NCBI GenBank assembly: GCA_031283575.1
Contig: JAITBL010000130.1
Span: 1 to 35,454, forward strand
Length of the DNA: 35,454 nt
From: Treponema sp.
GTDB taxonomy: Bacteria > Spirochaetota > Spirochaetia > Treponematales > Breznakiellaceae
Direction: 5' to 3'
Both the position numbers and the translations under genes were made by a program. The notes beneath the pieces were generated by a model. It made no database searches, was not told the DNA's origin, and saw only the letters and a program-made list of their open reading frames with translations. Each line of letters begins with the position of its first letter. Position 1 is the first letter of the stretch. Positions 5,972 to 29,551 of this stretch are shown one piece after another.

Positions 5972-6777
5972 GCCGCGTTCCCCTGCTGCCCGAACGGCCG
6001 CGCCCGCTGATCTTCGCCCATCGCGGCTGTTCTTCCCTGGCGCCGGAAAACACCATGGCGGCCTTTCGCAAGGCCCGTGAAACGGGCGCGGGCGGAATCG
6101 AACTTGACGTGCACGCGGCGGCGGACGGAAGCCTGATCGTCGCCCACGACGACACGTTTAAGCGCACCGCGCCCGCCGGCAACAACGGCGGCGGGCGGCC
6201 GCTGGAAGAACTGACTTACGGCGAAATAAAACGCATTGATGTCGGTTCCTTTTTCGCCCCCGCGTTTTCCGCCGAACGGCCGCCTTTGCTCGAGGAAGCG
6301 CTCGAGGAATTCTGCCCCGCGCTCTACATTGACATCGAGTTAAAATCACGCAAAATCAAAAACGATCCCCTGCCGGATCTTTTGGCGAAAAAACTTAAAG
6401 TTCTGGGTCCCCGTATTGCCTGCGCGCTTACCGTTTCTTCTTTTAACCCGTTCTGCCTTGCCGCTTTCAAAAAATCCTGGGGGCGCGAACGGGGCGCGCT
6501 GCCGCCCGTCGCGTCTGCCGTGTTCTACTGCGCCGGCGCGGAAGTACAGTTCCTGTTCCGTCACGGCGCGGGCAGCTTTATCGCCGCCTGTGATTACCTT
6601 AAGCCGCGCCATGATCAGGCGCACGCGTGGCGGCGGGCGCTCGCCGCGCTTGAAGGGCGGCCCCTCGTTCCCTGGACGGTCGACGATCCCGCCTTGGCGC
6701 GGCGGCTGCTGGACCGGCCCTGCGCGGGTATTATCACCAACCGGCCGCAGGATATTGTTCCGGCCGTCAACGCGTGA
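5968..6777 (+). CDS. Glycerophosphodiester phosphodiesterase family protein
   Basis: GDPD motifs: LIFAHRGCSSLAPENTMAAFRKARETGAGGIELDVHAAADGSLIVAHDDTFKRT; YIDIELK; TVDDPALARRLLDRPCAGIITNRP. TTG start overlapping previous stop. Confidence 0.92.
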   Translation: MSRVPLLPERPRPLIFAHRGCSSLAPENTMAAFRKARETGAGGIELDVHAAADGSLIVAHDDTFKRTAPAGNNGGGRPLEELTYGEIKRIDVGSFFAPAFSAERPPLLEEALEEFCPALYIDIELKSRKIKNDPLPDLLAKKLKVLGPRIACALTVSSFNPFCLAAFKKSWGRERGALPPVASAVFYCAGAEVQFLFRHGAGSFIAACDYLKPRHDQAHAWRRALAALEGRPLVPWTVDDPALARRLLDRPCAGIITNRPQDIVPAVNA

Positions 6778-6779
6778 AC

Positions 6780-6808
6780 TTGAACAACTTTTCCCGTCCT
6801 GCTATACT
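6780..6808 (+). promoter_or_regulatory. Sigma-70-type promoter TTGAAC-N17-TATACT
   Basis: ttgaac (6780-6785), 17-nt spacer, tatact (6803-6808), upstream of the XRE-cupin gene. Confidence 0.7.
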
Positions 6809-6869
6809 GACGTACCGGATGCTTTCGCGGCATCGTATTCATTTTTTGATGTGTGGGCAGAGGAACACA

Positions 6870-7457
6870 GTGACAGCAAAACGAACACCCGGTGAACGAA
6901 TCATCGAACTTTGCAAGACGTACTCAATTACGCGGGAAGCCCTGGCCGAACGTTCGGGGCTGGATCGGGAACTTATCAGGCGTATCGAGGAAGAAGGCCA
7001 TATCCCCGATCTTGCGCCGCTCCTTAAAATTTCCCGCGCCCTGGGAGTGCGCCTGGGAACCCTGCTCGACGACCACGAAGAGCTGGGGCCGGTAATTACC
7101 CGCGCGGGAGCGGCGGCTCAGGCCGCCCGCTTTATTACCGGCGGCGCAAAGGAAGAAACGGATCTTGTTGATACGGCTCATCAGGGGCACATCTTCCACG
7201 CCCTCGCCGCCGACAAGGGAAGCCGCCACATGGAACCCTTCATCGTCGATATCAAAAGCGGTTCCGAGCAGCCCAAGTCGTCGCATGAAGGCGAAGAATT
7301 TATGTATGTGCTTGAAGGCGCCATCACCGTTGATTACGGAAAGGACAGCTACACGATCAACGCCGGCGATTCAATCTATTACGATTCCATCGTGCCCCAC
7401 CGCGTTATTTCGGAGCGGGGAGGGCGTATCCTCGCGGTAATCTATACGCCGGCCTAA
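6870..7457 (+). CDS. XRE-family transcriptional regulator with C-terminal cupin domain
   Basis: HTH ([53 protein letters not shown]) plus cupin ([43 protein letters not shown]). GTG start chosen with AGAGGA SD. Confidence 0.92.
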
Positions 7458-13960: not shown

Positions 13961-13982
13961 CAAAAGACGTACTCGGGAAGGC

Positions 13983-14019
13983 GCCGTTCCGGTTACAGCC
14001 GGAACGGCTTCTTTTTTTT
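13983..14019 (+). terminator. Rho-independent terminator of flaB
   Basis: gccgttccgg (13983-13992) / ccggaacggc (13999-14008) followed by ttcttttttttc. Confidence 0.92.
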
Positions 14020-14038
14020 CGATGGCGTTCGTATCCGC

Positions 14039-14113: not shown

Positions 14114-15235
14114 TTGACAGGTCTAACTTATCATGCCGATAAAAAACCGCGCGTTTGTATTCTGTGCGGCGGTAAATCTCCGGAACATGAAGTTTCCCTT
14201 TGTTCAGCAATGAATGTGATAAAGGTTCTTGATCGGGGAAAATTCGATTATTTTCTGGTTGGAATTGATAAGTCCGGCAGGTGGTTTTACTGTCCAGGTG
14301 ATTTAGAGGGCAAATTTATTACCAATACCGATACTACGCTCAAACTTGATACCCCCTCGTTCCGGCAGGTAACGTTCACCGGTCCAACAGGCGGCGCGCT
14401 TGTCAATATAGAAAACGGCGAAACAGTAGACCATTGCGATGTTGTTTTTACGGTCCTGCATGGAATCAACGGCGAAGACGGTACGGTACAGGGTTTGTTG
14501 ACATTGGCGGGTGTGCCTTATACCGGCGGCGGTATACTTGGTTCCGCGCTGGGTATGGATAAGGATATGCAAAAGCGCGTACTGCGCGACGCGGGTATTC
14601 CTGTCACAAAAAGCATCACCCTGTATTCGTATGGCGCCATACCGGATTTTGAAACCGCCGCGGGGGAATTGGGCTGTCCCCTGATCAGTAAACCGGCCTG
14701 TTCCGGTTCGTCTATAGGGGTTCGTAAAATACAAAATAAAAGCGAATACGCGGACGCTGTACGCGAGGCTTTCTCTTACGCGCCAAAGATATTACTGGAA
14801 GAATTTATCAGGGGACGCGAAGTCGAGTGTTATGTGCTTGGGAATGAAAACCCGAAAGCTTTTTCCCCGGGCGAAGTTGATATGCGGGGCGATCTCTATT
14901 CTTATGAGGCAAAATATCAGCGGGCGGCAAGATGGGGTATTATCTATCCGGCAAAAACCGGTGAAAAAACAAAAGCAGAAATTATGCGGCTTGCGGAAAA
15001 AACTTTTACTGTTCTTGAAGGATCGGGATTTGCCAGGGTCGATTTTTTCTTAAAAGAGGATGATTCCATTTTGGTAAACGAAATAAACACCATTCCCGGA
15101 TTTACCTTCCTTCGTTCTTTCCCCAAAGAGTGGGAGGATGCGGGGTTTTCTTGCAGCAGTATTATCACCTGTATTATAGAACTGGCTGTTAACCGGTATA
15201 TTATGTATACAAAAATCAAGACTTGTTTTAAATGA
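14114..15235 (+). CDS. D-alanine--D-alanine ligase-like ATP-grasp protein
   Basis: CGGKSPEHEVSLCSA; HGINGEDGTVQGLLTLAGVPYTGGGILGSALGMDK; SKPACSGSSIGV; VNEINTIPGFT. TTG start with AAGGGGGTG SD inferred. Confidence 0.88.
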   Translation: MTGLTYHADKKPRVCILCGGKSPEHEVSLCSAMNVIKVLDRGKFDYFLVGIDKSGRWFYCPGDLEGKFITNTDTTLKLDTPSFRQVTFTGPTGGALVNIENGETVDHCDVVFTVLHGINGEDGTVQGLLTLAGVPYTGGGILGSALGMDKDMQKRVLRDAGIPVTKSITLYSYGAIPDFETAAGELGCPLISKPACSGSSIGVRKIQNKSEYADAVREAFSYAPKILLEEFIRGREVECYVLGNENPKAFSPGEVDMRGDLYSYEAKYQRAARWGIIYPAKTGEKTKAEIMRLAEKTFTVLEGSGFARVDFFLKEDDSILVNEINTIPGFTFLRSFPKEWEDAGFSCSSIITCIIELAVNRYIMYTKIKTCFK

Positions 15236-18015
15236 AACAGGGAGGCGGCGGGATAATTATGGGATCAAAAAGGTCTTATGTCATTTGGTTTATCATCTGC
15301 ACCGTGATCTGTGTAAGCACCGCTCTTGTGTGCGTATTCAACTGGAAACTGCTCAAACGGCCGGTATTCCAGAAGACCATTGAACTTGAATCGCCCCGTC
15401 TGGCAAAGTACCAGGCCGATGGAAATATTTACATCATTGACGCGGGTTTGTACCGTCTGATCTGTATGGCCCCGGACGGTAAAACAAAATGGACTGTTAC
15501 GACGGAACGCCTTGAGCAGTATGTCAAATTTATCGATCTTGCCGCCGATGAACGGGGAAATGTCTATGTATGCTGCAAAGAATTTGAAGGCGACGCTTAC
15601 CTGACCAAACGCGATTTTATCCGCCAGTACGACAGCAGGGGAAAATTTGTACGGGATATTTTGGTTGTCGATTATACCGATGACTCGGAAGACAGGCCGC
15701 ACGTTTTCCCCCAATTCAGTTCTTTTAATTATGACAATGGCGTTTTGTCTTTTATCCGTACGATGGAAAGCAAGGTAATTCTTTACCGTTTTGACACCTT
15801 TCGCAACGCGCTTGATCAAAAAGTATTTTATCCCGGAATGGGCGGTTATGCCGTTGCCCGTGTGGCAATGAAAGATTTTAATAATTTTGCCTACACAACC
15901 CGCAGTGGTGATATTTACGAAGTGGTAGACGGCGCTCCTTCTGCCCTGAGGGTTTCGTTTAACTGGACAGAAAAGGACGGCGGTATTATGCCGTGGTTTT
16001 TGCATTATGAAGGGGATAGTCTTATTTTTTGGGACATGGCAAGCGGGCAGCTGTTTCGTATCAACAGTAATAATCAACCCGTCCCCGTTCTGCCCGCTGA
16101 TTTTTTTGAATCGCTTTCCAGCAAGGGGCAGGCGCCGGGCTACGCTGTTTTTGGTTCCTACGGCGATTATTATGCCGGTGTATTTGGCGACTATGCGTGG
16201 TTTTATAACGCCAAAGAATTTGTAACATGGCCCAAAGGCCTGGAGCTGCCGCCAAGGGAGCGGATTTTTATCGCCACGGTGCAGGTTCTTTTTGCGGCGG
16301 CGGCTATTTCTTTTTTTGTCAGCTGTTTTATCCTTGTTGTCTTTATGTTTGACCGTTATGTGTCGTTATTTGTAAAGCAGACAGTAATAATTATTCCGAT
16401 TGTGATTATTGGTTTTTTTGTTTTATATCGAACTACGTTTGACGCCATGTCTGAACGTATTAAAACCCAGATTTTTCATGAACTTAGCATGGTGGCCAAT
16501 CTCGCCGCCAAACAGATCAGCGGCGATGATCTGGAAGAACTTACCAGCACTAAAGATTATCAAAGTGATGCCTATAAAAAACTTTCCACAGCCATGAAGG
16601 ATATAGTGGCTGATAACAAGGAAGTGTGGGGCAGATCATTTTATGCGGGAATCATGAAGGGCGTACGCGCCTGGCGCTGGATTTGTGTATCTGACGATGA
16701 ATTTAATCTGTTCCGCCCGACAGCTGTGGTCAATTTGAGCGATGAGGAATTGGATTTTTATAATGCGGGGGGCATTGATTCCGGCATTGCAGAAACAAAT
16801 GAAGGTTTATGGGCTTATGCCAGTAACGCCCTTTTTAAGAGTGATGGTGAAATAGCGGGATTTTTTGAAATCGGTATTGATTTGAACGGTTATGAAAAGA
16901 GCAATATAGAGCAAAGCAGAAAAACCGTAATTATTGCGGCGCTTGTTTGTGTCGTTATTCTTTTGGTTTTAATTGTCATACTGGCAATGATTATTAGGCA
17001 GCTTTCCACCGTGGCAAGCGTGTTGAAGAGAATCGGTTCGGGAGATTATTCCGCCCGTGTACATTATAAGGCCAGGGATGAACTGGGCACGGTAAGTTAC
17101 GGCTTTAACAGTATGGCGGCAGAACTCGAAAAACAGATAGGCCATATTACCGAAATAAACGCTTCGACAGTACGTTTTGTACCGGTTCAATTTATGGAAT
17201 ATTTAAAGGTGCCGGATATAACACAGCTAAAGCTGGGCGCAAGCGTTCAACATAATTTTACGATATTGTTTTTTGACATACGTTCTTTTTCGATTCATTC
17301 GGAGTTAATGAGCGTAAGCGAAACCTTTAAATTCATCAACAATATTCTGGGAGTTTCCGGCCCTGTTATACGAAAATACAACGGTTTTGTTGATAAATAC
17401 ATGGGTGACGCGGCAATGGCCCTGTTTCCCTTTGCCGTAGACGCGGTTAAAGCCGGTATCGAAATTTATCAGGAAGTCGTGCTTTCCGCGAACGCCAAAG
17501 TAAAGATGGGGCTGGACGGCGTTAATATAGGCGTCGGTCTCCATACGGGGCCTGTCTACCTTGGTATCATCGGCGAAAATGAGCGGCTTTCCGGCTCGGT
17601 CATTTCAAACAATGTAAATCTTGCTTCGCGTATAGAATCGCTTACCAAACAGGTAAAATCCGGCATGTTGATAACCAGCGCTACCTTTAACAGAATTCCG
17701 GACGAAGAACGTAATTTTAGCTACCGCTTTATTGGCATGATAAAAGTCGCCGGCGTCAACGAAATTACCGGTGTCTTTGACATACTGGACGCGCTGCCGA
17801 AAAAAGTACGTCAGCGGCGGCTTAAGACAAAGCTTGTGTTTGAATCGGGCGTCAGGCTGTATCATACCAAAAACTACAAAAAAGCCGAAGCGCGTTTTAT
17901 TAAAACCCTGGAAGCCGACCCTGACGATCTGTGCGCGTCAATTTGTCTTGAAGAAACCAGGGCGCGTATAAAAAATCCGGATCTTCCCAGTGTGTTTGTG
18001 TTTGACAGGAAATAG
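15232..18015 (+). CDS. Membrane sensor adenylate/guanylate cyclase: TM, beta-propeller/NHL-like ectodomain, TM, second extracytoplasmic sensor, TM, HAMP, class III cyclase, TPR-like tail
   Basis: NHL-like IRQYDSRGKFVRDILV; HAMP (LSTVASVLKRIGSGDYSARVHYKARDELGTVSYGFNSMAAELEKQ); cyclase FTILFFDIRSFSIHSE…FVDKYMGDAAMALF…VISNNVNLASRIE; tail YHTKNYKKAEARFIKTLEADPDD. Alternative start ATG 15259. Confidence 0.9.
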   Translation: MKQGGGGIIMGSKRSYVIWFIICTVICVSTALVCVFNWKLLKRPVFQKTIELESPRLAKYQADGNIYIIDAGLYRLICMAPDGKTKWTVTTERLEQYVKFIDLAADERGNVYVCCKEFEGDAYLTKRDFIRQYDSRGKFVRDILVVDYTDDSEDRPHVFPQFSSFNYDNGVLSFIRTMESKVILYRFDTFRNALDQKVFYPGMGGYAVARVAMKDFNNFAYTTRSGDIYEVVDGAPSALRVSFNWTEKDGGIMPWFLHYEGDSLIFWDMASGQLFRINSNNQPVPVLPADFFESLSSKGQAPGYAVFGSYGDYYAGVFGDYAWFYNAKEFVTWPKGLELPPRERIFIATVQVLFAAAAISFFVSCFILVVFMFDRYVSLFVKQTVIIIPIVIIGFFVLYRTTFDAMSERIKTQIFHELSMVANLAAKQISGDDLEELTSTKDYQSDAYKKLSTAMKDIVADNKEVWGRSFYAGIMKGVRAWRWICVSDDEFNLFRPTAVVNLSDEELDFYNAGGIDSGIAETNEGLWAYASNALFKSDGEIAGFFEIGIDLNGYEKSNIEQSRKTVIIAALVCVVILLVLIVILAMIIRQLSTVASVLKRIGSGDYSARVHYKARDELGTVSYGFNSMAAELEKQIGHITEINASTVRFVPVQFMEYLKVPDITQLKLGASVQHNFTILFFDIRSFSIHSELMSVSETFKFINNILGVSGPVIRKYNGFVDKYMGDAAMALFPFAVDAVKAGIEIYQEVVLSANAKVKMGLDGVNIGVGLHTGPVYLGIIGENERLSGSVISNNVNLASRIESLTKQVKSGMLITSATFNRIPDEERNFSYRFIGMIKVAGVNEITGVFDILDALPKKVRQRRLKTKLVFESGVRLYHTKNYKKAEARFIKTLEADPDDLCASICLEETRARIKNPDLPSVFVFDRK

Positions 18016-18023
18016 GACGGTAA

Positions 18024-18986
18024 ATGGGCGCCCGGTTTATCCTGAACGATTTACAGCAAAAAGCGTTTGATTACTTTGTGACGCGGGGCTTTTTACCGGT
18101 AGATAAAGACGCTTACCCCGTATTTAAGCGTTATGACGGCGGCGATAATCTTTTGGGAGAAATGACCGCCACCGTTGCCGTTATCTGGGGCTTTGAATAT
18201 TATGCCCTTTACAAAGTAATGGGCGGGTATTTATGCAGTCTGTGGTTTTTTCGTCATGATCCTGATTACTATTTTGAGGTGAACCGTCCTTCCCGTCCGG
18301 ATTGTTCCTTAAGCGATTTGATAAGCGCCTTGTATACCATGACACAGGAAGCGGGTTTATCCTGTCTGCGTATTTATTCGGTCAACGAAGAAAACCTGAA
18401 GGAGTTTCAGAACATACCCGGCTTTGATATAGAGACGGACTATTCCGGCGATCGCAGCGAATATTTTTATAAAGTAAAGGATTTAATGGAATTAACGGGG
18501 AGCGTTAATTTCTACAAACGCAAACGTCTTAAACGCTGTTTTTCCCTGGATAATATTTCAATTAAACCCATTACCGGCGAAAATATCAATCTTGTTCTGG
18601 GGGTACACGATAAATGGTGCGAACATCAGGATTGTGATTATTGCCGATCATTTGTCGGCTGCGAAAGAAAAGCCCTGGAGATCATGGTCTCTATCTATAA
18701 TGATAAAGAAAAAACGGGTCTTTTGCTTTACGAAGGCGATGTGCCGGCGGGGTATATTATTTGTGAACAAATCAATAAAAAAGTGTCTTATCTGTATCAG
18801 GGCAAGGCGGTTATTCAGGATTTTTTTATTTATCTTATTTATATGATGTATAAAGATTATCTGCCGGATGTGGAATACATGGATTTAAATGAAGATATGG
18901 GACACGAGGGGCTTAGAATGTTTAAAAGGCATTTAAGCGTTTACGAATTGTGGCGCAAATATCTTTTAACATACGGGAAACAATGA
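18024..18986 (+). CDS. DUF2156 / phosphatidylglycerol-lysyltransferase C-terminal-domain-like protein, paralog 1
   Basis: SEYFYKVKDLMELTGSVNFYKRKRLKRCF; WCEHQDCDYCRSFVGC; NEDMGHEGLRMFKRHLSVYELWRKYLLTY. Confidence 0.82.
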   Translation: MGARFILNDLQQKAFDYFVTRGFLPVDKDAYPVFKRYDGGDNLLGEMTATVAVIWGFEYYALYKVMGGYLCSLWFFRHDPDYYFEVNRPSRPDCSLSDLISALYTMTQEAGLSCLRIYSVNEENLKEFQNIPGFDIETDYSGDRSEYFYKVKDLMELTGSVNFYKRKRLKRCFSLDNISIKPITGENINLVLGVHDKWCEHQDCDYCRSFVGCERKALEIMVSIYNDKEKTGLLLYEGDVPAGYIICEQINKKVSYLYQGKAVIQDFFIYLIYMMYKDYLPDVEYMDLNEDMGHEGLRMFKRHLSVYELWRKYLLTYGKQ

Positions 18987-18989
18987 GCC

Positions 18990-19961
18990 ATGCGGTTAAA
19001 AACACGGGTAAATTTAAACGAGGCGCAGGAAAAAACATATTCTGTTTTAGCGCAGAATGGATTTGAACCCATGGAAGCGGGATCTTTTCCCTTTTTATAC
19101 GCTTACAGGGCGGATAATCAACTGCATGAACTTAGCGCAACAACCTGCGCCATCTGGGCGTTTGCCTACAGGGCGATATATAAAATGATACATTCCTGTT
19201 TGACAAGCGTTTGGTTTTACCGCGATGGAAAGGTGTTTTTCTATGTACACCGTCCCCAAAGTTCAGAATATTCCTTGCAGGAAATTGTTGACACTCTTTA
19301 TCGTTTGGCTATAGAGTCGGGGCTTGATTCATTGCAGCTATGGCCTGTCGAGGAGCGATTTTTGGATGACTATAAAGCTGTTGAAGGATATGATACGGAA
19401 TTTGAAAACAACGAGAATATGAGCGAGTATAAATACCGCATTCTTGATATAGTCAAATTGGAAGGCGGGGCCAATCAAAACAAGCGGACCATTTTAAAAA
19501 AATATTTTGACAGGGCAAACATTATTTCATTAAAAAAAAGTAATTTTGATATTTGCCTTGATATAGAAGAAGAGTGGTGTAAAACGGAAGACTGTGACAG
19601 TTGCTATTTTTATGGAAGCGGCTGTGCAAAAGACTCGCTGTTTCAAATGCTGACAATATTCGATGACAATATACACAGGGGATTGTTGGGATTTATTGAT
19701 GGTAAACCAGTGGCGTATTCAATCTGGGACAAGATTAAACCCGGGTATTATGTAACTTATTTTGCAAAATCCATAGTAAAGAATTTTACGACATACCTTT
19801 ATTATGTCATGGCAAAAGATCATATGCAGGATGGAATATTTTTGAATAATGGCCCCGATATGGGCAAAGAAGGCTTGAGGAATTTCAAGCGTCATTTGAG
19901 TACTTACGAACTCTGCGGCAAATATCTTTGTACTTTCAGGAAACAAGATGTCCAATGTTAA
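18990..19961 (+). CDS. DUF2156-like protein, paralog 2
   Basis: SEYKYRILDIVKLEGGANQNKRTILKKYF; WCKTEDCDSCYFYGSGC; NNGPDMGKEGLRNFKRHLSTYELCGKYLCTF. Confidence 0.82.
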   Translation: MRLKTRVNLNEAQEKTYSVLAQNGFEPMEAGSFPFLYAYRADNQLHELSATTCAIWAFAYRAIYKMIHSCLTSVWFYRDGKVFFYVHRPQSSEYSLQEIVDTLYRLAIESGLDSLQLWPVEERFLDDYKAVEGYDTEFENNENMSEYKYRILDIVKLEGGANQNKRTILKKYFDRANIISLKKSNFDICLDIEEEWCKTEDCDSCYFYGSGCAKDSLFQMLTIFDDNIHRGLLGFIDGKPVAYSIWDKIKPGYYVTYFAKSIVKNFTTYLYYVMAKDHMQDGIFLNNGPDMGKEGLRNFKRHLSTYELCGKYLCTFRKQDVQC

Positions 19962-20895
19962 AACCCGTTCGTCCGCTGATTTTTTTTGTTTGCAGGGATT
20001 TAAACCCATAGAAAGCGGTGATTTCAATTTATTCAGGGAATATGAAGGCCCCGCAAGGTTGATTGAACTTACCGCCACCCTCAGCGTTAATTGGGCTTTT
20101 GCCTCTTCCGGTTGTTATAAAATCGTTATGGATTATCTTTGCAGCGTATGGTTCTTTGAAAACGGGACCTGTTTTTGTATCCAGAATAAACGAGGAAAAT
20201 ATCATTCGCTAAAAGAGCTTGTTGATTTTTTGTATGATTTGTCTGTCAGGGCCGGATTGACCGGTTTAAAAATAAATTTTTTGGATGAAGTTTTGCTGCC
20301 CGATTTTACCTCGGTGGAGGGGTACGATATACATGCCGCTTATGATGAAAATTTAAGCGAATATGTATATAGGCCCGCGAATCTGCTTGATCTGGAAGGA
20401 AAAAATAACCAGAACAAAAGAACCTGTATCAATAAATTCAGCAAGATTGACAATTTATCCTTTGCGGAGCTTACCCCGGAAAATTTTAAATATTGTTTTG
20501 CTGTTGAAGAACGCTGGTGCGAAACCCAGGATTGCCCGGCCTGCGAGGCATCCTGTGGATGCGCCAAAAAGTCGCTTGAAACAATGGAAGTCATTTTTAA
20601 CCCGATTATACATCATGGGATGCTCGCTTTTATGGATAACCTCCCTGTAGCTTATGGTATTTGGGAAAAAAAAGAAAACGGCATAGTCTTTCTCTATTTT
20701 GCAAAATCAATCCTTGACAATTTTGCCATTTACTTTTATTATATACTGGTTAAGAAGTACCTGCGGGACGCTGAGTATATCAATGTTGGCGCTGATATGG
20801 GTATCGCGGGGCTGAGGCATTTTAAAGGCCATTTGAGCGAACATGAAGTTTGGAAGAATTATTTTTGTACTTATCAAAGGAACGGGAAGTTATGA
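19948..20895 (+). CDS. DUF2156-like protein, paralog 3
   Basis: SEYVYRPANLLDLEGKNNQNKRTCINKFS; WCETQDCPACEASCGC; NVGADMGIAGLRHFKGHLSEHEVWKNYFCTY. Confidence 0.82.
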   Translation: MSNVKTRSSADFFCLQGFKPIESGDFNLFREYEGPARLIELTATLSVNWAFASSGCYKIVMDYLCSVWFFENGTCFCIQNKRGKYHSLKELVDFLYDLSVRAGLTGLKINFLDEVLLPDFTSVEGYDIHAAYDENLSEYVYRPANLLDLEGKNNQNKRTCINKFSKIDNLSFAELTPENFKYCFAVEERWCETQDCPACEASCGCAKKSLETMEVIFNPIIHHGMLAFMDNLPVAYGIWEKKENGIVFLYFAKSILDNFAIYFYYILVKKYLRDAEYINVGADMGIAGLRHFKGHLSEHEVWKNYFCTYQRNGKL

Positions 20896-23888
20896 ATACG
20901 CCAGTAATTAAAAGGATCGCCATAGTGTGCTTCCTCATTGCCGCTGTTTTATCGCTTATTCTGGCGCTAAACAGAAAAAAAATAAATTTAAACCCATGGC
21001 AAACAAAGGGCATGCTGGAATGGTGCCTTTACGCAAGCGGAAACGGTGAAAGGCTTGCCATGAGCGGAAACGGCAAAGAGTCCGTAGTTGTAGTCGATAA
21101 TAATGACAGGCTTATTTACCGCCTGGACGCAAATACCGGCAATAAAGAGTCCTTTAAAAATACTGTGTTCATCACCCTGGATAATGAAAATAATCTCTAT
21201 GTGCTTGACTGGAATTTTGGGGGCGTTTTTACCGATAATGTCGAACGTATTATCAAATATGATGAAAACGGCAGGTTTGTTCAGGAATTATATGCTTACC
21301 GCTATTTAAATGAAGACAATATATTCAGTATAGGTAAAATCAAGGGGATAGCTTGTTCTAATAACAGCATTTATTTTGCGCGATTGGAACGCGACGGATT
21401 TTATCTGGAAGAAATATCAACCGATGGATTGTTCGATGTTAGAACAGTTGCAAAATATTTATATCCCAATGCAATGAGCGATATTTCTTATCTGCATATT
21501 AATCCAAATATAAAGCGCCTTGCAGGTGTAACAAAAAGCGGTACGATCAAACAGTTTGATTTTTCCGGCAACGAGCTTGGTGAATGGCCTGCCCCGCCAG
21601 GCACATTACCCTTTATGGCGGTTTCTGATGCCCACGGCAATATTATTTATTCCGACATACTCACCTACGAGCTTAACCGTATTGATACCGCAACGGGTGA
21701 ACATTCCGTAGTGGTCCCCGCGGAAGAAGGCATTCGGTACGATGAAATAAATTATGAAGGGGACACGCTGTATGCGGCGCCCAATACCGAGTATATTCTC
21801 ATGCTCAACGACAGCGGTTCAAAAGAAGCTTTATATTCATACACACTTCCGGACACAACAGTAATTGTAGGCCGGCTTATGTTTATTGCCTTGATACTGG
21901 ACGCGCTTGTCTGGGCGGGGTGTATTATTGGCGTTGTTTTACTTTTTAGGCGCATTAGCCTTAGCGATAAATTTAAACAAATAATTTTGGCGACCATTTG
22001 TATCGCATTGGGCGCGAGTGTATCGGCCATACTCATTGTCCGTGACATGGGCAACCGGATTACCGAAAACACTTTTTCGAGTCTTGAAAATATTTCCCGC
22101 ATGATGTCCGCCTCGATAGATACCGATGTCCTTACGGCGATAGACAGTCCCTCGGATTGGGATACCGAAGAGTATCAGAAACTCAGAGCGGACATTATGG
22201 ATTTATTTACCAGTCTGGACTTTACCGGACAAACGGTGTATCAGGAAATTTGGATGGAACGGAACGGAACGGTTTATTCCATGTATGATACCGAAAGTAC
22301 GCTTGGCACCTATTTCCCTTATGATGTTTATGAGGATACCTATTTTAAAGAGGTTTATGAAACCGGTAAATACATACACGAAGCGCTGCCCAGCGCTTCC
22401 GGTTCCTGGATTTATGTATGCGGTCCCATATTTGACAAAAACGGAAAGGTTGTGGCGCTTATCGAAACAGGGCACAGTCTCAATATGATTCTGGAACAAA
22501 ACAGAAAAATGATGATTCAAACGATGCTTATCGTTGTATCCACAGCCATTGTGTTCCTTTTGTTCATGATAGAAATGATAGTAATCGCCAATGGAAGAAA
22601 AAACCTTATAGCCGCCTGGAAACAGAGCGGCGGCAGGGACGAGACCTTTTTCCCTGAACTGCTCAGGGCCATTGTCTTCTTCCAGTTTTTCGCAAATAAT
22701 CTGGCAACCGCCCTGGTGCCAATGTATGCGGCAAATCTGTACATACCTTTATTCAATCTTCCCCGTGAATTTATTGTTACCCTGCCGTTTACCGCAAGTG
22801 TGGCGATGGCAATAACGGCATTATTTGTTGTTCCGGCGGTTTTAAACCGTGTGGGCATTAAACCCCTTGCTCTTTTTGCCGGAATATTTTTTACCGCCGG
22901 CAATATACTTTGCTGGACCGCGACCAATGTTGCGTTTTTGGCATTGGGCTATGCCCTTACCGGTTTTTGCAGCGGCACCCTGGTTCTTGTTGTGAACACC
23001 ATCATTGGAAGGCAAAAAGATGAGGCTTCGGTAACCAGCGGTTTTGCTCATTTTAACGCCTCGTATTTGGCGGGATTGAACGCCGGTATTGTAGTGGGCG
23101 CCATATTTGCCCAGTTCTTTTCATACCGGACGGTATTCCTTTTTGCGGCAATGTTTTCGTTTGTGCTGTTTACAATTATTTTGTATGCGGCCAATTCAAA
23201 ATACATGCAGAATTTCTTTATTCTTTCACACAAAGAAACCGCGGAAGAATCCGTGGAAGAATCCTCAAGGGCAAAAGGCCTGTCCATTGTCAGATTTGTT
23301 TTTAATCCCCTCGCGTTATGCATACTGTTTCTGGTTCTCCTTCCGTTTATGGCAAGCGCCAGTTTTATTGATTATTTTGTGCCCATATTCGGGAGCGAGC
23401 ATGGTTTGACAGAATCGAATATTGGTCAGCTTATCCTGTTAAGCGGCTTGCTTGCCATACTTTTTGGGACAAGCTTTTGTGAGTATGCGGCCAAAAAATT
23501 ACGCTACAAGATGATAATCATCGGCGCGCTGATTCTTAACATTGCCGGCTTGTACCTGTTTTCGGTAAGTCAAACCGTTCCCATGTTGATTGTAACCGTT
23601 ATTATTATGGCGGTAGCGAATATCTTCGCATCAACCAATATACAATCATATTATGCTTCGCTGTACCAGTATTACAGGGTTCAGCCCGCCCAGGCGTTAA
23701 GCGTTTTTTCCGCTGTGGAAAATCTTGCCATAGGCGTGGGGCCGGTAATGTTCAGTTATATATTGGCAAATAATATTGGCGGCGGCATTAGAATATTTGC
23801 GCTTGCCTCTTTGGGCTGTCTCATTGTCTTTAATATTGTGGCTGTCATTTTCTGGCATAATAAAAGGAGCGAAGCGCAGGCCCGCTGA
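20892..23888 (+). CDS. Beta-propeller/NHL-like and Cache-like sensor domains fused to a C-terminal MFS transporter
   Basis: N-terminal TM, IIKYDENGRFVQELYAY propeller repeat, TM, sensor region (TDVLTAIDSPSDWDTEEYQKLRADIMDLF…YVCGPIFDKNGKVVALIETG), then about 12 hydrophobic helices with MFS-like pattern. ATG at 20892 overlaps previous TGA. Confidence 0.85.
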   Translation: MNTPVIKRIAIVCFLIAAVLSLILALNRKKINLNPWQTKGMLEWCLYASGNGERLAMSGNGKESVVVVDNNDRLIYRLDANTGNKESFKNTVFITLDNENNLYVLDWNFGGVFTDNVERIIKYDENGRFVQELYAYRYLNEDNIFSIGKIKGIACSNNSIYFARLERDGFYLEEISTDGLFDVRTVAKYLYPNAMSDISYLHINPNIKRLAGVTKSGTIKQFDFSGNELGEWPAPPGTLPFMAVSDAHGNIIYSDILTYELNRIDTATGEHSVVVPAEEGIRYDEINYEGDTLYAAPNTEYILMLNDSGSKEALYSYTLPDTTVIVGRLMFIALILDALVWAGCIIGVVLLFRRISLSDKFKQIILATICIALGASVSAILIVRDMGNRITENTFSSLENISRMMSASIDTDVLTAIDSPSDWDTEEYQKLRADIMDLFTSLDFTGQTVYQEIWMERNGTVYSMYDTESTLGTYFPYDVYEDTYFKEVYETGKYIHEALPSASGSWIYVCGPIFDKNGKVVALIETGHSLNMILEQNRKMMIQTMLIVVSTAIVFLLFMIEMIVIANGRKNLIAAWKQSGGRDETFFPELLRAIVFFQFFANNLATALVPMYAANLYIPLFNLPREFIVTLPFTASVAMAITALFVVPAVLNRVGIKPLALFAGIFFTAGNILCWTATNVAFLALGYALTGFCSGTLVLVVNTIIGRQKDEASVTSGFAHFNASYLAGLNAGIVVGAIFAQFFSYRTVFLFAAMFSFVLFTIILYAANSKYMQNFFILSHKETAEESVEESSRAKGLSIVRFVFNPLALCILFLVLLPFMASASFIDYFVPIFGSEHGLTESNIGQLILLSGLLAILFGTSFCEYAAKKLRYKMIIIGALILNIAGLYLFSVSQTVPMLIVTVIIMAVANIFASTNIQSYYASLYQYYRVQPAQALSVFSAVENLAIGVGPVMFSYILANNIGGGIRIFALASLGCLIVFNIVAVIFWHNKRSEAQAR

Positions 23889-23919
23889 AAAGGGCCCTTT
23901 CGGAGGGCCCTTTTCAGCG
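23883..23919 (+). terminator. Perfect 15-bp hairpin overlapping the MFS-fusion stop codon
   Basis: cgctgaaaagggccc (23883-23897) / gggcccttttcagcg (23905-23919), loop tttcgga; includes TGA at 23886-23888. Confidence 0.75.
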
Positions 23920-23953
23920 CTTGACCGCAAAGGAGCCGGCTTTTAAATCGCCG

Positions 23954-27181: not shown

Positions 27182-29551
27182 CTACTTCGACAATGCCTTC
27201 CAGTGGCCCTTCCATTCCGCGGGCCGTTCCAGATAGTAGCGGCACTGGTCGGCATAGTATTTAGGCGGGCTGTCTTTGTCCAAAAGCGCTTCAAAGCGTT
27301 TAAGGGCGCCGGCAAAGTCGCCGCTGTAAAACACTTCGCGGGCCTCGTCAAACTGCCTGATGACGGCTTCTTTTTCCCTGTACACGGCTTCGGTCATGGG
27401 TTCCCACACGGTCACCGGCTCGTTCTTTCCCACAACCGCTACCTGGGCAAGTTTACGGCCGTAGAAGGGTTTTTCCGCGCCCGCTTTGTTAAAGGTAGCG
27501 TCGGAACACATCAGATAAGTGCCAAACTGTTTATTAAGGCCTTCAAGGCGGGCCGCCAGGTTTACCGCGTCGCCCAGCATCGTGTAGTTAAAGTGATGGG
27601 CCGAACCAAAGTTTCCCACCACCGCGTAGCCGGTGTTAAGGCCGATACGGGTAAGAAGCCGCTTGTTCACGCCGGGCGCTTCAATGTGCCACGACTTAAA
27701 CTTTTCCTCGAAGTAGGGCCCCTTTTCCACCAGGCGGGCCTGGCACTCAATGGCGGCGGCCAGCGCGCGTGACGCGTGATCCTCAAGATGAACCGGCGCG
27801 TTCCAGAAAGCGATAATCGCGTCGCCTTCGTACTTGTCGATGGTTCCGCCTGAATCCTGAATGATGTCGGTAAGAAAAGTAAGGTAATCGTTGAGAAGCT
27901 CTTTAAGCTGATCAGGATCGAGATTTTCGGAAATCGTCGTAAAACCCTGTACATCGGAAAAGAAGATGCTGATGTCAAGACGCTGTCCGCCCAGCTTGAG
28001 CTGGCTGGGATCGTTTATCAGCTGATCGATATAGATCGGGCTTAGATACTGGCTGAACGCCGATTTGATGTAACGTTTTTGACTGCCCTCGGTTGCATAG
28101 TTATAAATATAACAGGTGACAAAGGATCCCAAAATTCCCGCCAGGGGAAGCACCACGGGAAGCCAGTAACCGGCGTGGTAGGCAAAGAGGGCGGCGGCAA
28201 CGATCGCCGCGGTGATTGCGAGCGTACTTCCCACCGCGACCGGCAGCTTATCGCAAAAGAGCACGAACGCGGTAACGGCGGCAACAACAACAAAGAGAAC
28301 GGCCAGCGCTGTCGGCAGCGGGATATCGCGTATAAAATCGTCGCTTAAAATATTGTCCAGCATCGTGATGTGCATCCCCATGCCCGGGTACACCGATTCC
28401 AGCGGGTTACTGCAAATATCAAAAAGTCCCGGGGCATAAAATCCAAAGAACACGTACTTGTCTTTAAAGTCTTCGGGATAGTAAAGGGGTTCTTCTCCCC
28501 CTGCGATGGCGCGGGCGCTGGTAAGAATATCCGACGCCCTGTAGGGAAGATAGCGGTTAAGGCTTCCCCTGAAACGGAGAATGCTGCGTCCCTGGCTGTC
28601 CACGGGAATGTTGTGTCCTTCCCACTCGATCTCCTGCTTTTTCGCGTTATACGAAATAACCGGACTGCCGCCTGAAACCAAAAGCGACGCGGCGGAAAGT
28701 CCCGGGACCGCGCGGCCGTCAAAATTGATAAAGAGCCGCACCCGCCGGTTGATACCGTCGGAATCTTCGGCATTGGTTACATTACCCAAAGCGCCCGACG
28801 CCTGATTGAGGGAAGGAATGGGAAACTGGGCGCCGATGCGGCCCTCGGCAATCAGATTAAAACGGTCCCGCACCCCGCCAAAGCCTTCCGGCGTAAAGAG
28901 TTTTTTGTCGGCCTCGGGCAGCCACACTTCGGAAATGCCCGTTTGGGTGCTAAAGAATACCGTCTGCACTACCCTGCCGTAACGGGAAGACGCGGCGGCA
29001 AAAGCTTCATCATCCTGGTTTACCGAAAGGCCCCGCAGCGCCTGCATCGCTTCCATATAGCCGGTAAAAACACCGCGCTGCTCCTCGGTCGGCCGGGCCC
29101 GCTCCGTACCGCGTTCCCCGCCGCGCTGGATATTCTGCGCCGACTGCCGCAGTTCTTCCATCTTTTCGACGGCGTTGTCAATAATCGCGTCCTGATTGGC
29201 GCTGCGATAAATGGAAGGTTCGGAAAAAAGTACGTCGAAAGCCACCGATTTGGCGCCTCCGGCGTTCATAAAGTCTACAATCTCGGCGTAGGATTCGCGG
29301 GGCCAGGGCCATCCCCAGCCGCGCTCCTTGTTGGCCCAGTCGATACTGTCCTGATCGAGAAGGACGACGGAAATTTCGTCCGAGGGCTTGTACGAATCGG
29401 CAAAAAGCTTGACCCGAAAATCGTAGGCCTTATATTCCAGGGTATCCAGCACATGCAGTATCTGGAGCAGTCCCACGCCTAAAAACACGAGAATCGTCAC
29501 CAGTATCGCGGTGATAATCCGTTTTGAATCCGGGGAATGTTTCCCTGCCAT
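27182..29551 (-). CDS. CHASE2-domain adenylate/guanylate cyclase
   Basis: CHASE2-like ectodomain (EISVVLLDQDSIDW…AKSVAFDVLFSEPS), TM segments, catalytic FFSDVQGFTTISE, IDKYEGDAIIAFW, YTMLGDAVNLAARLEGL. Confidence 0.93.
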   Translation of the reverse strand: MAGKHSPDSKRIITAILVTILVFLGVGLLQILHVLDTLEYKAYDFRVKLFADSYKPSDEISVVLLDQDSIDWANKERGWGWPWPRESYAEIVDFMNAGGAKSVAFDVLFSEPSIYRSANQDAIIDNAVEKMEELRQSAQNIQRGGERGTERARPTEEQRGVFTGYMEAMQALRGLSVNQDDEAFAAASSRYGRVVQTVFFSTQTGISEVWLPEADKKLFTPEGFGGVRDRFNLIAEGRIGAQFPIPSLNQASGALGNVTNAEDSDGINRRVRLFINFDGRAVPGLSAASLLVSGGSPVISYNAKKQEIEWEGHNIPVDSQGRSILRFRGSLNRYLPYRASDILTSARAIAGGEEPLYYPEDFKDKYVFFGFYAPGLFDICSNPLESVYPGMGMHITMLDNILSDDFIRDIPLPTALAVLFVVVAAVTAFVLFCDKLPVAVGSTLAITAAIVAAALFAYHAGYWLPVVLPLAGILGSFVTCYIYNYATEGSQKRYIKSAFSQYLSPIYIDQLINDPSQLKLGGQRLDISIFFSDVQGFTTISENLDPDQLKELLNDYLTFLTDIIQDSGGTIDKYEGDAIIAFWNAPVHLEDHASRALAAAIECQARLVEKGPYFEEKFKSWHIEAPGVNKRLLTRIGLNTGYAVVGNFGSAHHFNYTMLGDAVNLAARLEGLNKQFGTYLMCSDATFNKAGAEKPFYGRKLAQVAVVGKNEPVTVWEPMTEAVYREKEAVIRQFDEAREVFYSGDFAGALKRFEALLDKDSPPKYYADQCRYYLERPAEWKGHWKALSK

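Follow-up and report, generated by a model that had tools for sequence, protein, structure and literature searches.

The window examined here, a 35,454-nucleotide stretch of Treponema sp. DNA (assembly GCA_031283575.1, contig JAITBL010000130.1, positions 1 to 35,454 of the forward strand), harbors at positions 14114 to 23888 six closely packed open reading frames (ORFs) on one strand. Five of these, namely a class III cyclase gene with an N-terminal sensor (the sensor-cyclase), three DUF2156 genes and a gene fusing a sensor to a major facilitator superfamily (MFS) transporter (the sensor-MFS), belong to a conserved unit found in several families of the Spirochaetota, which is tentatively interpreted here as a sense-modify-transport system. 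The Pfam domains encoded are Dala_Dala_lig N and C in the sixth product, a Ddl-like ligase, HAMP and Guanylate_cyc in the sensor-cyclase, LPG_synthase_C in each DUF2156 protein, and MFS_1 in the sensor-MFS; domain content and ORF coordinates thus bear out the initial annotation of the locus, made from the nucleotide sequence, as six packed same-strand genes. The features are as follows.

13983..14019, + strand: flaB intrinsic terminator, upstream boundary; stem-loop with a T run (-26.2 kcal/mol, z -4.0 for 13975-14030)
14114..15235, + strand: Ddl-like ligase of the ATP-grasp type, a lineage-specific second copy outside the conserved unit (PF01820/PF07478; TTG start)
15259..18015 (alternative start 15232), + strand: sensor-cyclase (Pfam HAMP and class III cyclase; homologue alignment)
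18024..18986, + strand: DUF2156/LPG_synthase_C, array position 1 (PF09924, E 1.3e-9; alignment and tree; Cys cluster 18617-18662)
18990..19961, + strand: DUF2156/LPG_synthase_C, array position 2 (PF09924, E 8.8e-11; Cys cluster C197-C212, 19578-19625; model and Foldseek)
19948..20895, + strand: DUF2156/LPG_synthase_C, array position 3 (PF09924, E 2.2e-8; tree; Cys cluster 20518-20562)
20892..23888, + strand: sensor-MFS fusion (MFS_1 match; sensor model; Foldseek)
23883..23919, + strand: perfect 17-bp hairpin at the presumed operon end (-32 kcal/mol, z -5.9 for 23880-23930; 0/200 shuffles as good)

Three of the gene junctions were as initially annotated, being a 3-bp gap between the first and second DUF2156 genes, a 14-bp overlap between the second and third, and a 4-bp overlap (ATGA) between the third and the sensor-MFS gene, while the gap separating the sensor-cyclase gene from the first DUF2156 gene measures 8 bp rather than 9 bp. 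The overlap described for the ligase and cyclase genes holds, at 4 bp, if the cyclase starts at the ATG at 15232; with the ATG at 15259, which is the better fit to homologues, the two genes are separated by 23 bp instead. The GC content of the six-gene set is 42.7%, against 54.7% in the remaining window genes, in agreement with the AT richness reported earlier, and both hairpins thought to bound the set fold much more stably than shuffled sequence. The downstream hairpin is a probable bidirectional terminator, and from their spacing and conservation the six genes are presumed to constitute an operon.

Conservation of the unit across the Spirochaetota

The genes of the unit are co-located well beyond the window, both in about 20 further genomes of the same family and in other families of the phylum. 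A search with the middle DUF2156 protein across 199 genomes of the order returned matches above 130 bits in the window's family only, often as two or three tandem copies, with relatives of the sensor-MFS, the sensor-cyclase or both beside many of these strong loci; it is to a sensor-MFS gene that the DUF2156 genes are adjacent in the approximately 20 other family genomes. Close spacing was seen again in tens of other loci, many junctions being 4-bp overlaps or separated by a few bases.

Among 201 family genomes, a full sensor-MFS is encoded by 22, while the cyclase and the DUF2156 subfamily are each represented in 33; absences throughout this study are restricted by the incompleteness of metagenome-assembled genomes (MAGs). 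The DUF2156 subfamily was present in all 22 sensor-MFS genomes (Fisher p 1.5e-21, kinship ignored), and the association held in 13 of 13 genera when counted by genus (p 8e-10), with the cyclase present in 15 of the 22. Across 20 loci, the cyclase and MFS distance matrices correlate at r 0.97; restricting the comparison to the family (n 11) gives r 0.90, with a Mantel p of 0.0005.

Full-length sensor-MFS relatives were also identified in families f3, f11, f12, f27, f39 and f51, the module loci outside the window's family belonging to genomes classified as Spirochaetes, Spirochaetia or Spirochaetales bacteria. Outside f3, the sensor-MFS gene adjoins one for a full-length sensor-cyclase relative, the cyclase gene being convergent at locus L115 and the contig of L063 ending inside the neighboring gene. 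The third gene is more variable. In three f39 genomes, as in the window's family, it encodes a DUF2156 protein, and the order cyclase-MFS-DUF2156 was observed at L117, L118 and L121. At L110 to L114 and L116, the order is MFS-cyclase-formyltransferase, the last assigned through Formyl_trans_N, with fmt as the best NCBIfam match, for the two proteins scanned, and by profile or by eye for the rest; at L115, the MFS gene is accompanied by a GNAT acetyltransferase gene. Through co-inheritance, recurrent adjacency and tight spacing, the DUF2156, sensor-MFS and sensor-cyclase genes constitute a conserved unit comprising five of the six window genes, and to this extent the initial proposal of a single system stands. 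The initial annotation had not recognized the lineage-dependent choice of partner enzyme, nor, as described below, the sensor type common to cyclase and MFS or the four-Cys cluster of the DUF2156 copies.

The same cannot be said of the ligase, for which the initial annotation had envisaged a pathway role and a dipeptide-like product. Its ATP-grasp N and C domains, the EAKY omega loop of D-Ala-D-Ala type (within YSYEAKY) and its closest PDB matches, which are DdlA-type enzymes, suggest an ordinary D-Ala-D-Ala ligase. A better-scoring Ddl is encoded on a separate contig (C175) of the same genome, and while a Ddl match is present in 158 of the 201 family genomes, two matches occur only in the window genome (G000) and in G530. 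No ligase gene adjoins the module in any of the 200 other family genomes. The window Ddl is, therefore, a lineage-specific second copy lying outside the conserved module; it was rejected as a pathway member, and as it is not linked to the module elsewhere, a dipeptide product is not indicated.

Architecture of the sensor-MFS, sensor-cyclase and DUF2156 proteins

The sensor-MFS comprises, in order, a transmembrane helix (TM1), an NHL-like propeller (residues 39 to 318), TM2/TM3, a cache-like region (residues 410 to 529), TM4 and the MFS domain (residues ~590 to 985). The MFS_1 match (PF07690, E 3.2e-23) covers residues 609 to 939 in the 1012-residue reading, and hydrophobic segments across residues 633 to 986 correspond to about 12 transmembrane helices, a count which is inexact. 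Modeling of the sensor (predicted local distance difference test [pLDDT] 88.9, predicted template modeling score 0.85) produced a beta-propeller followed by an alpha/beta region, termed cache-like from the secondary structure of the model rather than from a database match. Foldseek aligned this model with NHL propellers and streptogramin B lyase (template modeling score ~0.55 to 0.64 by target length), matches which are indicative of the predicted fold and not of the ligand; the sensor-MFS sequence itself yielded one weak chance match in the PDB. In genus g14, further copies of this sensor are followed not by an MFS domain but by a segment similar to periplasmic solute-binding domains, a resemblance noted by eye and with no Pfam match (L124:569-2797 and L129:9315-11468, the latter ~2.4 kb after the module).

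The sensor-cyclase carries a similar N terminus, both proteins presenting a transmembrane helix, a domain of ~300 residues, two transmembrane helices, a region of ~150 residues and a further helix. The two sensors share about 20 to 25% identity by BLAST, and at the Spirochaetota module loci, each family profile finds the sensor of the other at about 190 to 420 bits. On the basis of this alignment to the modeled MFS sensor, the cyclase sensor is predicted to adopt the same fold. Following TM1, the extracytoplasmic beta-propeller-like domain, TM2/TM3, the cache-like region and TM4 are the HAMP domain (residues 586 to 633), the class III cyclase domain (residues 674 to 845) and a short TPR-like tail (numbering from the start at 15232). 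In 21 homologues, D682, K722, D726, N796 and R800 are invariant and position 789 is occupied by S or T. From what is generally known of class III enzymes, we take these to be the metal-binding Asp, substrate-determining Lys and Thr/Ser, and transition-state Asn and Arg residues; by this alignment the metal, Asn and Arg residues are intact and the Lys plus Ser/Thr pattern is of adenylyl cyclase type, such that cyclic AMP (cAMP) is the presumed product. These residues and the HAMP domain are shared with adenylyl cyclases of the CyaB/CyaC type, from which the module cyclase differs in its N-terminal propeller and cache-like sensor, the same operon also encoding a transporter fused to a related sensor.

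Several other observations concern the cyclase. Stand-alone sensor-cyclases of the same architecture, with no adjacent sensor-MFS, are encoded by Clostridia, in MAGs as well as isolates, several being of rumen origin (L175 and L179 to L197); a full-length sensor-MFS was absent outside the Spirochaetota from the cyclase-anchored loci listed, no direct sensor-MFS search having been made there. A Pycsar-type anti-phage cyclase was considered and discarded, as PADLOC matches the cyclase domain only and no effector (PycTM or the like) is present among the six genes. At L052:9233-12301 (genome G144), a 1022-residue ORF consists of a cyclase cut off at about residue 875 and joined to the latter half of a DUF2156 protein, representing either a genuine deletion fusion or a MAG assembly error. 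Another class III cyclase gene of the window, whose product has a CHASE2 domain, is located at 27182-29551 on the minus strand, 3.3 kb from the module.

The DUF2156 proteins are ~320 residues long, with PF09924 above the cut-off in all three, no other Pfam domain above it, and no N-terminal multi-transmembrane flippase domain by Pfam. Their best PDB relative is 2HQY, a conserved protein of Bacteroides thetaiotaomicron (129 bits with a profile). The model of array position 2 (pLDDT 85) likewise matched 2HQY first in Foldseek (template modeling score 0.78 to 0.85), followed by MprF C-terminal domains and FemX, and is consistent with a tandem-GNAT, aminoacyltransferase-type fold. The proteins are accordingly regarded as putative amine-acylating enzymes, which may use aminoacyl-tRNA. 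They resemble MprF in this catalytic fold (4v35, 5vrv, 4v36 and 9j8q) and in having a membrane transporter alongside, but are nearer to 2HQY, stand alone without a flippase domain, often occur as two or three arrayed paralogues, carry a four-Cys cluster and are encoded with an MFS transporter bearing a sensor. 2HQY is the closest relative in both sequence and fold, although the modeled window copy is only ~20% identical to it and the Cys-x4-Cys-x2-Cys-x5-Cys cluster is only partly present there.

The cluster, WC-x4-C-x2-C-x5-GC or a close variant, occurs in all 66 family copies (65 by pattern and one, L129 copy 2, by eye) and is absent from the three f39 copies and from two canonical DUF2156 proteins of the window genome; the corresponding loop (residues 201 to 210) is a low-confidence part of the array-position-2 model. 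In the DUF2156 tree, array positions separate as old lineages whose order is kept in several genera, and the copies are therefore not recent duplicates; those of the window lie on long branches and their exact placement is unsure. The two canonical genes (L001 and L002, on contigs C259 and C216) are each divergent from an adjacent M20 peptidase gene, called peptidase-T-like by eye, which is a possible clue to 2HQY-type function. Elsewhere, an omptin-family gene lies immediately upstream of the DUF2156-MFS genes at L046 and L047 (genus g29), and a Na+/H+ antiporter family gene (PF03553) lies between the cyclase and DUF2156 genes at L133, L134 and L138, this call resting on Pfam for the L170 copy (on the same contig as L138) and on similarity for L133 and L134.

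Proposed function and alternative explanations

The recurrent combination of sensor-MFS, sensor-cyclase and amine-modifying enzyme suggests an undescribed sense-modify-transport unit of spirochaetes. No description of such a module appears in the titles and opening abstract lines of the papers retrieved on DUF2156, and a literature search found none on COG4866, on DUF2156 with major facilitator and operon, or on sensor, MFS, cyclase and spirochete. We propose, with somewhat less than even confidence, that an amine compound is modified by the unit and transported through the membrane, its level outside being reported via cAMP. The parts of the unit, their common sensor type, the enzyme classes and folds, and the intact cyclase residues are computed; from these we infer a substrate, a transport direction, gating and cyclase activity. 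On the cytoplasmic side, DUF2156 proteins would acylate or aminoacylate an amine, carried either by a small molecule or by a lipid headgroup, and the MFS half would then move this product through the inner membrane, probably outward. Export is favored, since a transporter gated by a sensor and encoded alongside an enzyme is in keeping with product feedback. The propeller/cache sensor of the transporter would read the outside concentration and gate transport, while the sensor-cyclase, reading the same or a related ligand, would produce cAMP and so inform the cell of the amount of product outside. In other lineages, the enzyme slot would be filled by the formyltransferase-like protein or the GNAT, and in some a chemoreceptor or Rsb-type partner switch would act beside the sensor-MFS.

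Candidate outputs of the latter kind are encoded at several loci. In three of the seven sensor-MFS genomes with no cyclase match (G069, G502 and G570), a chemoreceptor gene lies within 40 bp on the same strand, which may represent an output swap, observed at three loci of two genera, and the f3 sensor-MFS gene is also found beside a SpoIIE phosphatase gene, with STAS-like and RsbW-like genes near (by eye). Known systems offer partial parallels, described here from general knowledge. UhpB/UhpC also links an MFS protein to a signaling output by operon, but in the module an extracytoplasmic sensor is part of the MFS protein itself, and a cyclase bearing a second copy of this sensor takes the place of the histidine kinase as output enzyme. 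LplT-Aas likewise couples an MFS transporter with an acyltransferase, although of another family, and lacks both sensor and cyclase.

Several findings weigh against the proposed function. No member of the unit has a known substrate or activity, 2HQY, the nearest solved relative, is without an assigned function, and the direction of MFS transport is not readable from sequence. The components are also separable: the cyclase is solitary in other Treponema and in Clostridia, 7 of the 22 sensor-MFS genomes lack a cyclase match, and DUF2156 arrays (two or three copies recovered in each) occur with neither MFS nor cyclase in genera g19, g24 and g211 (L041, L043, L049, L053, L125, L126, L128, L131 and L132). 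In f3, moreover, the sensor-MFS neighbor is an uncharacterized protein of ~460 residues rather than an acyltransferase.

Were the sense-modify-transport reading correct, the unit would represent a new coupling of small-molecule modification, transport and second-messenger signaling through twin sensors and an exchangeable acyl-transfer enzyme, recurring across the Spirochaetota, among them Treponema for which metagenome assemblies are the sole source. The common sensor would provide a direct handle for ligand finding, and the 2HQY-group DUF2156 proteins would gain a testable functional context.

Among the alternatives, a transceptor-like uptake system, in which an amine nutrient, once sensed, is imported by the sensor-MFS, signaled by the cyclase and either trapped or converted in the cell by the acyltransferase, is considered unlikely. 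The MFS domain is compatible with transport either way, outward-facing sensors would suit nutrient detection, and chemoreceptor genes adjoin the module at L042, L052, L129, L139 and L141, as for an attractant nutrient; the top NCBIfam match of the MFS domain is, however, the multidrug-type TIGR00880 (below threshold), and no recurrent catabolic genes accompany the module.

Envelope modification by a split MprF analogue is similarly improbable. DUF2156 would then aminoacylate a lipid or envelope precursor from aminoacyl-tRNA for flipping by the MFS protein, with the sensors detecting membrane-active cationic compounds. Such a role would accord with the similarity in fold to FemX and the catalytic domains of MprF, with the omptin-family gene of L046/L047 and with the formyltransferase of other families, whose class includes ArnA, but the best match is the soluble 2HQY group and not MprF, the flippase domain is missing, and the formyltransferase is nearer to Fmt than to ArnA (82.9 versus 51.4 bits, both far below the cut-off).

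A self-contained cell-to-cell signaling circuit seems quite unlikely; here, the GNAT-fold enzyme would make an N-acylated or aminoacylated amine signal, which the sensor-MFS would secrete with feedback through the outside sensor it carries and which, on accumulating, would be read and answered with cAMP by the twin cyclase, an enzyme that chemoreceptor or Rsb-type outputs would replace or join in other lineages. Modify-and-pump detoxification, whereby a toxic amine (e.g., an antibiotic from gut neighbors) is detected outside by the sensors, inactivated by the transferase and expelled by the MFS protein, is very doubtful. Acyl transfer to amines combined with an MFS pump is an established resistance logic, and the L115 GNAT is weakly similar to streptothricin acetyltransferases (below threshold), yet known resistance units mostly have, to general knowledge, cytoplasmic regulators rather than paired outside sensors and a cyclase, and three diverged enzymes in fixed order exceed the needs of inactivation.

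That the genes are chance neighbors in an AT-rich island, as the GC contrast with flanking DNA in the window's family and the lack of any DUF2156, MFS or cyclase match in the same-genus genome G542 might imply, is scarcely credible and, for the DUF2156, sensor-MFS and sensor-cyclase genes, is refuted by their repeated co-occurrence, in differing gene orders, across several families and many genera and by the correlated distances; it holds for the ligase only.

In the window's family, the module is at most loci poorer in GC than its flanks, possibly as a result of horizontal transfer among family members; in other families the difference is inconsistent. G542 retains the right-flank genes (cupin, FGGY kinase and aldolase-like), with no left-flank match in 20 kb; a simple empty site was rejected there, as an insertion junction could not be drawn. 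At L054 (genus g34), the module is preceded by a flagellin gene (6271-7203), as in the window, hinting at a conserved location in some lineages.

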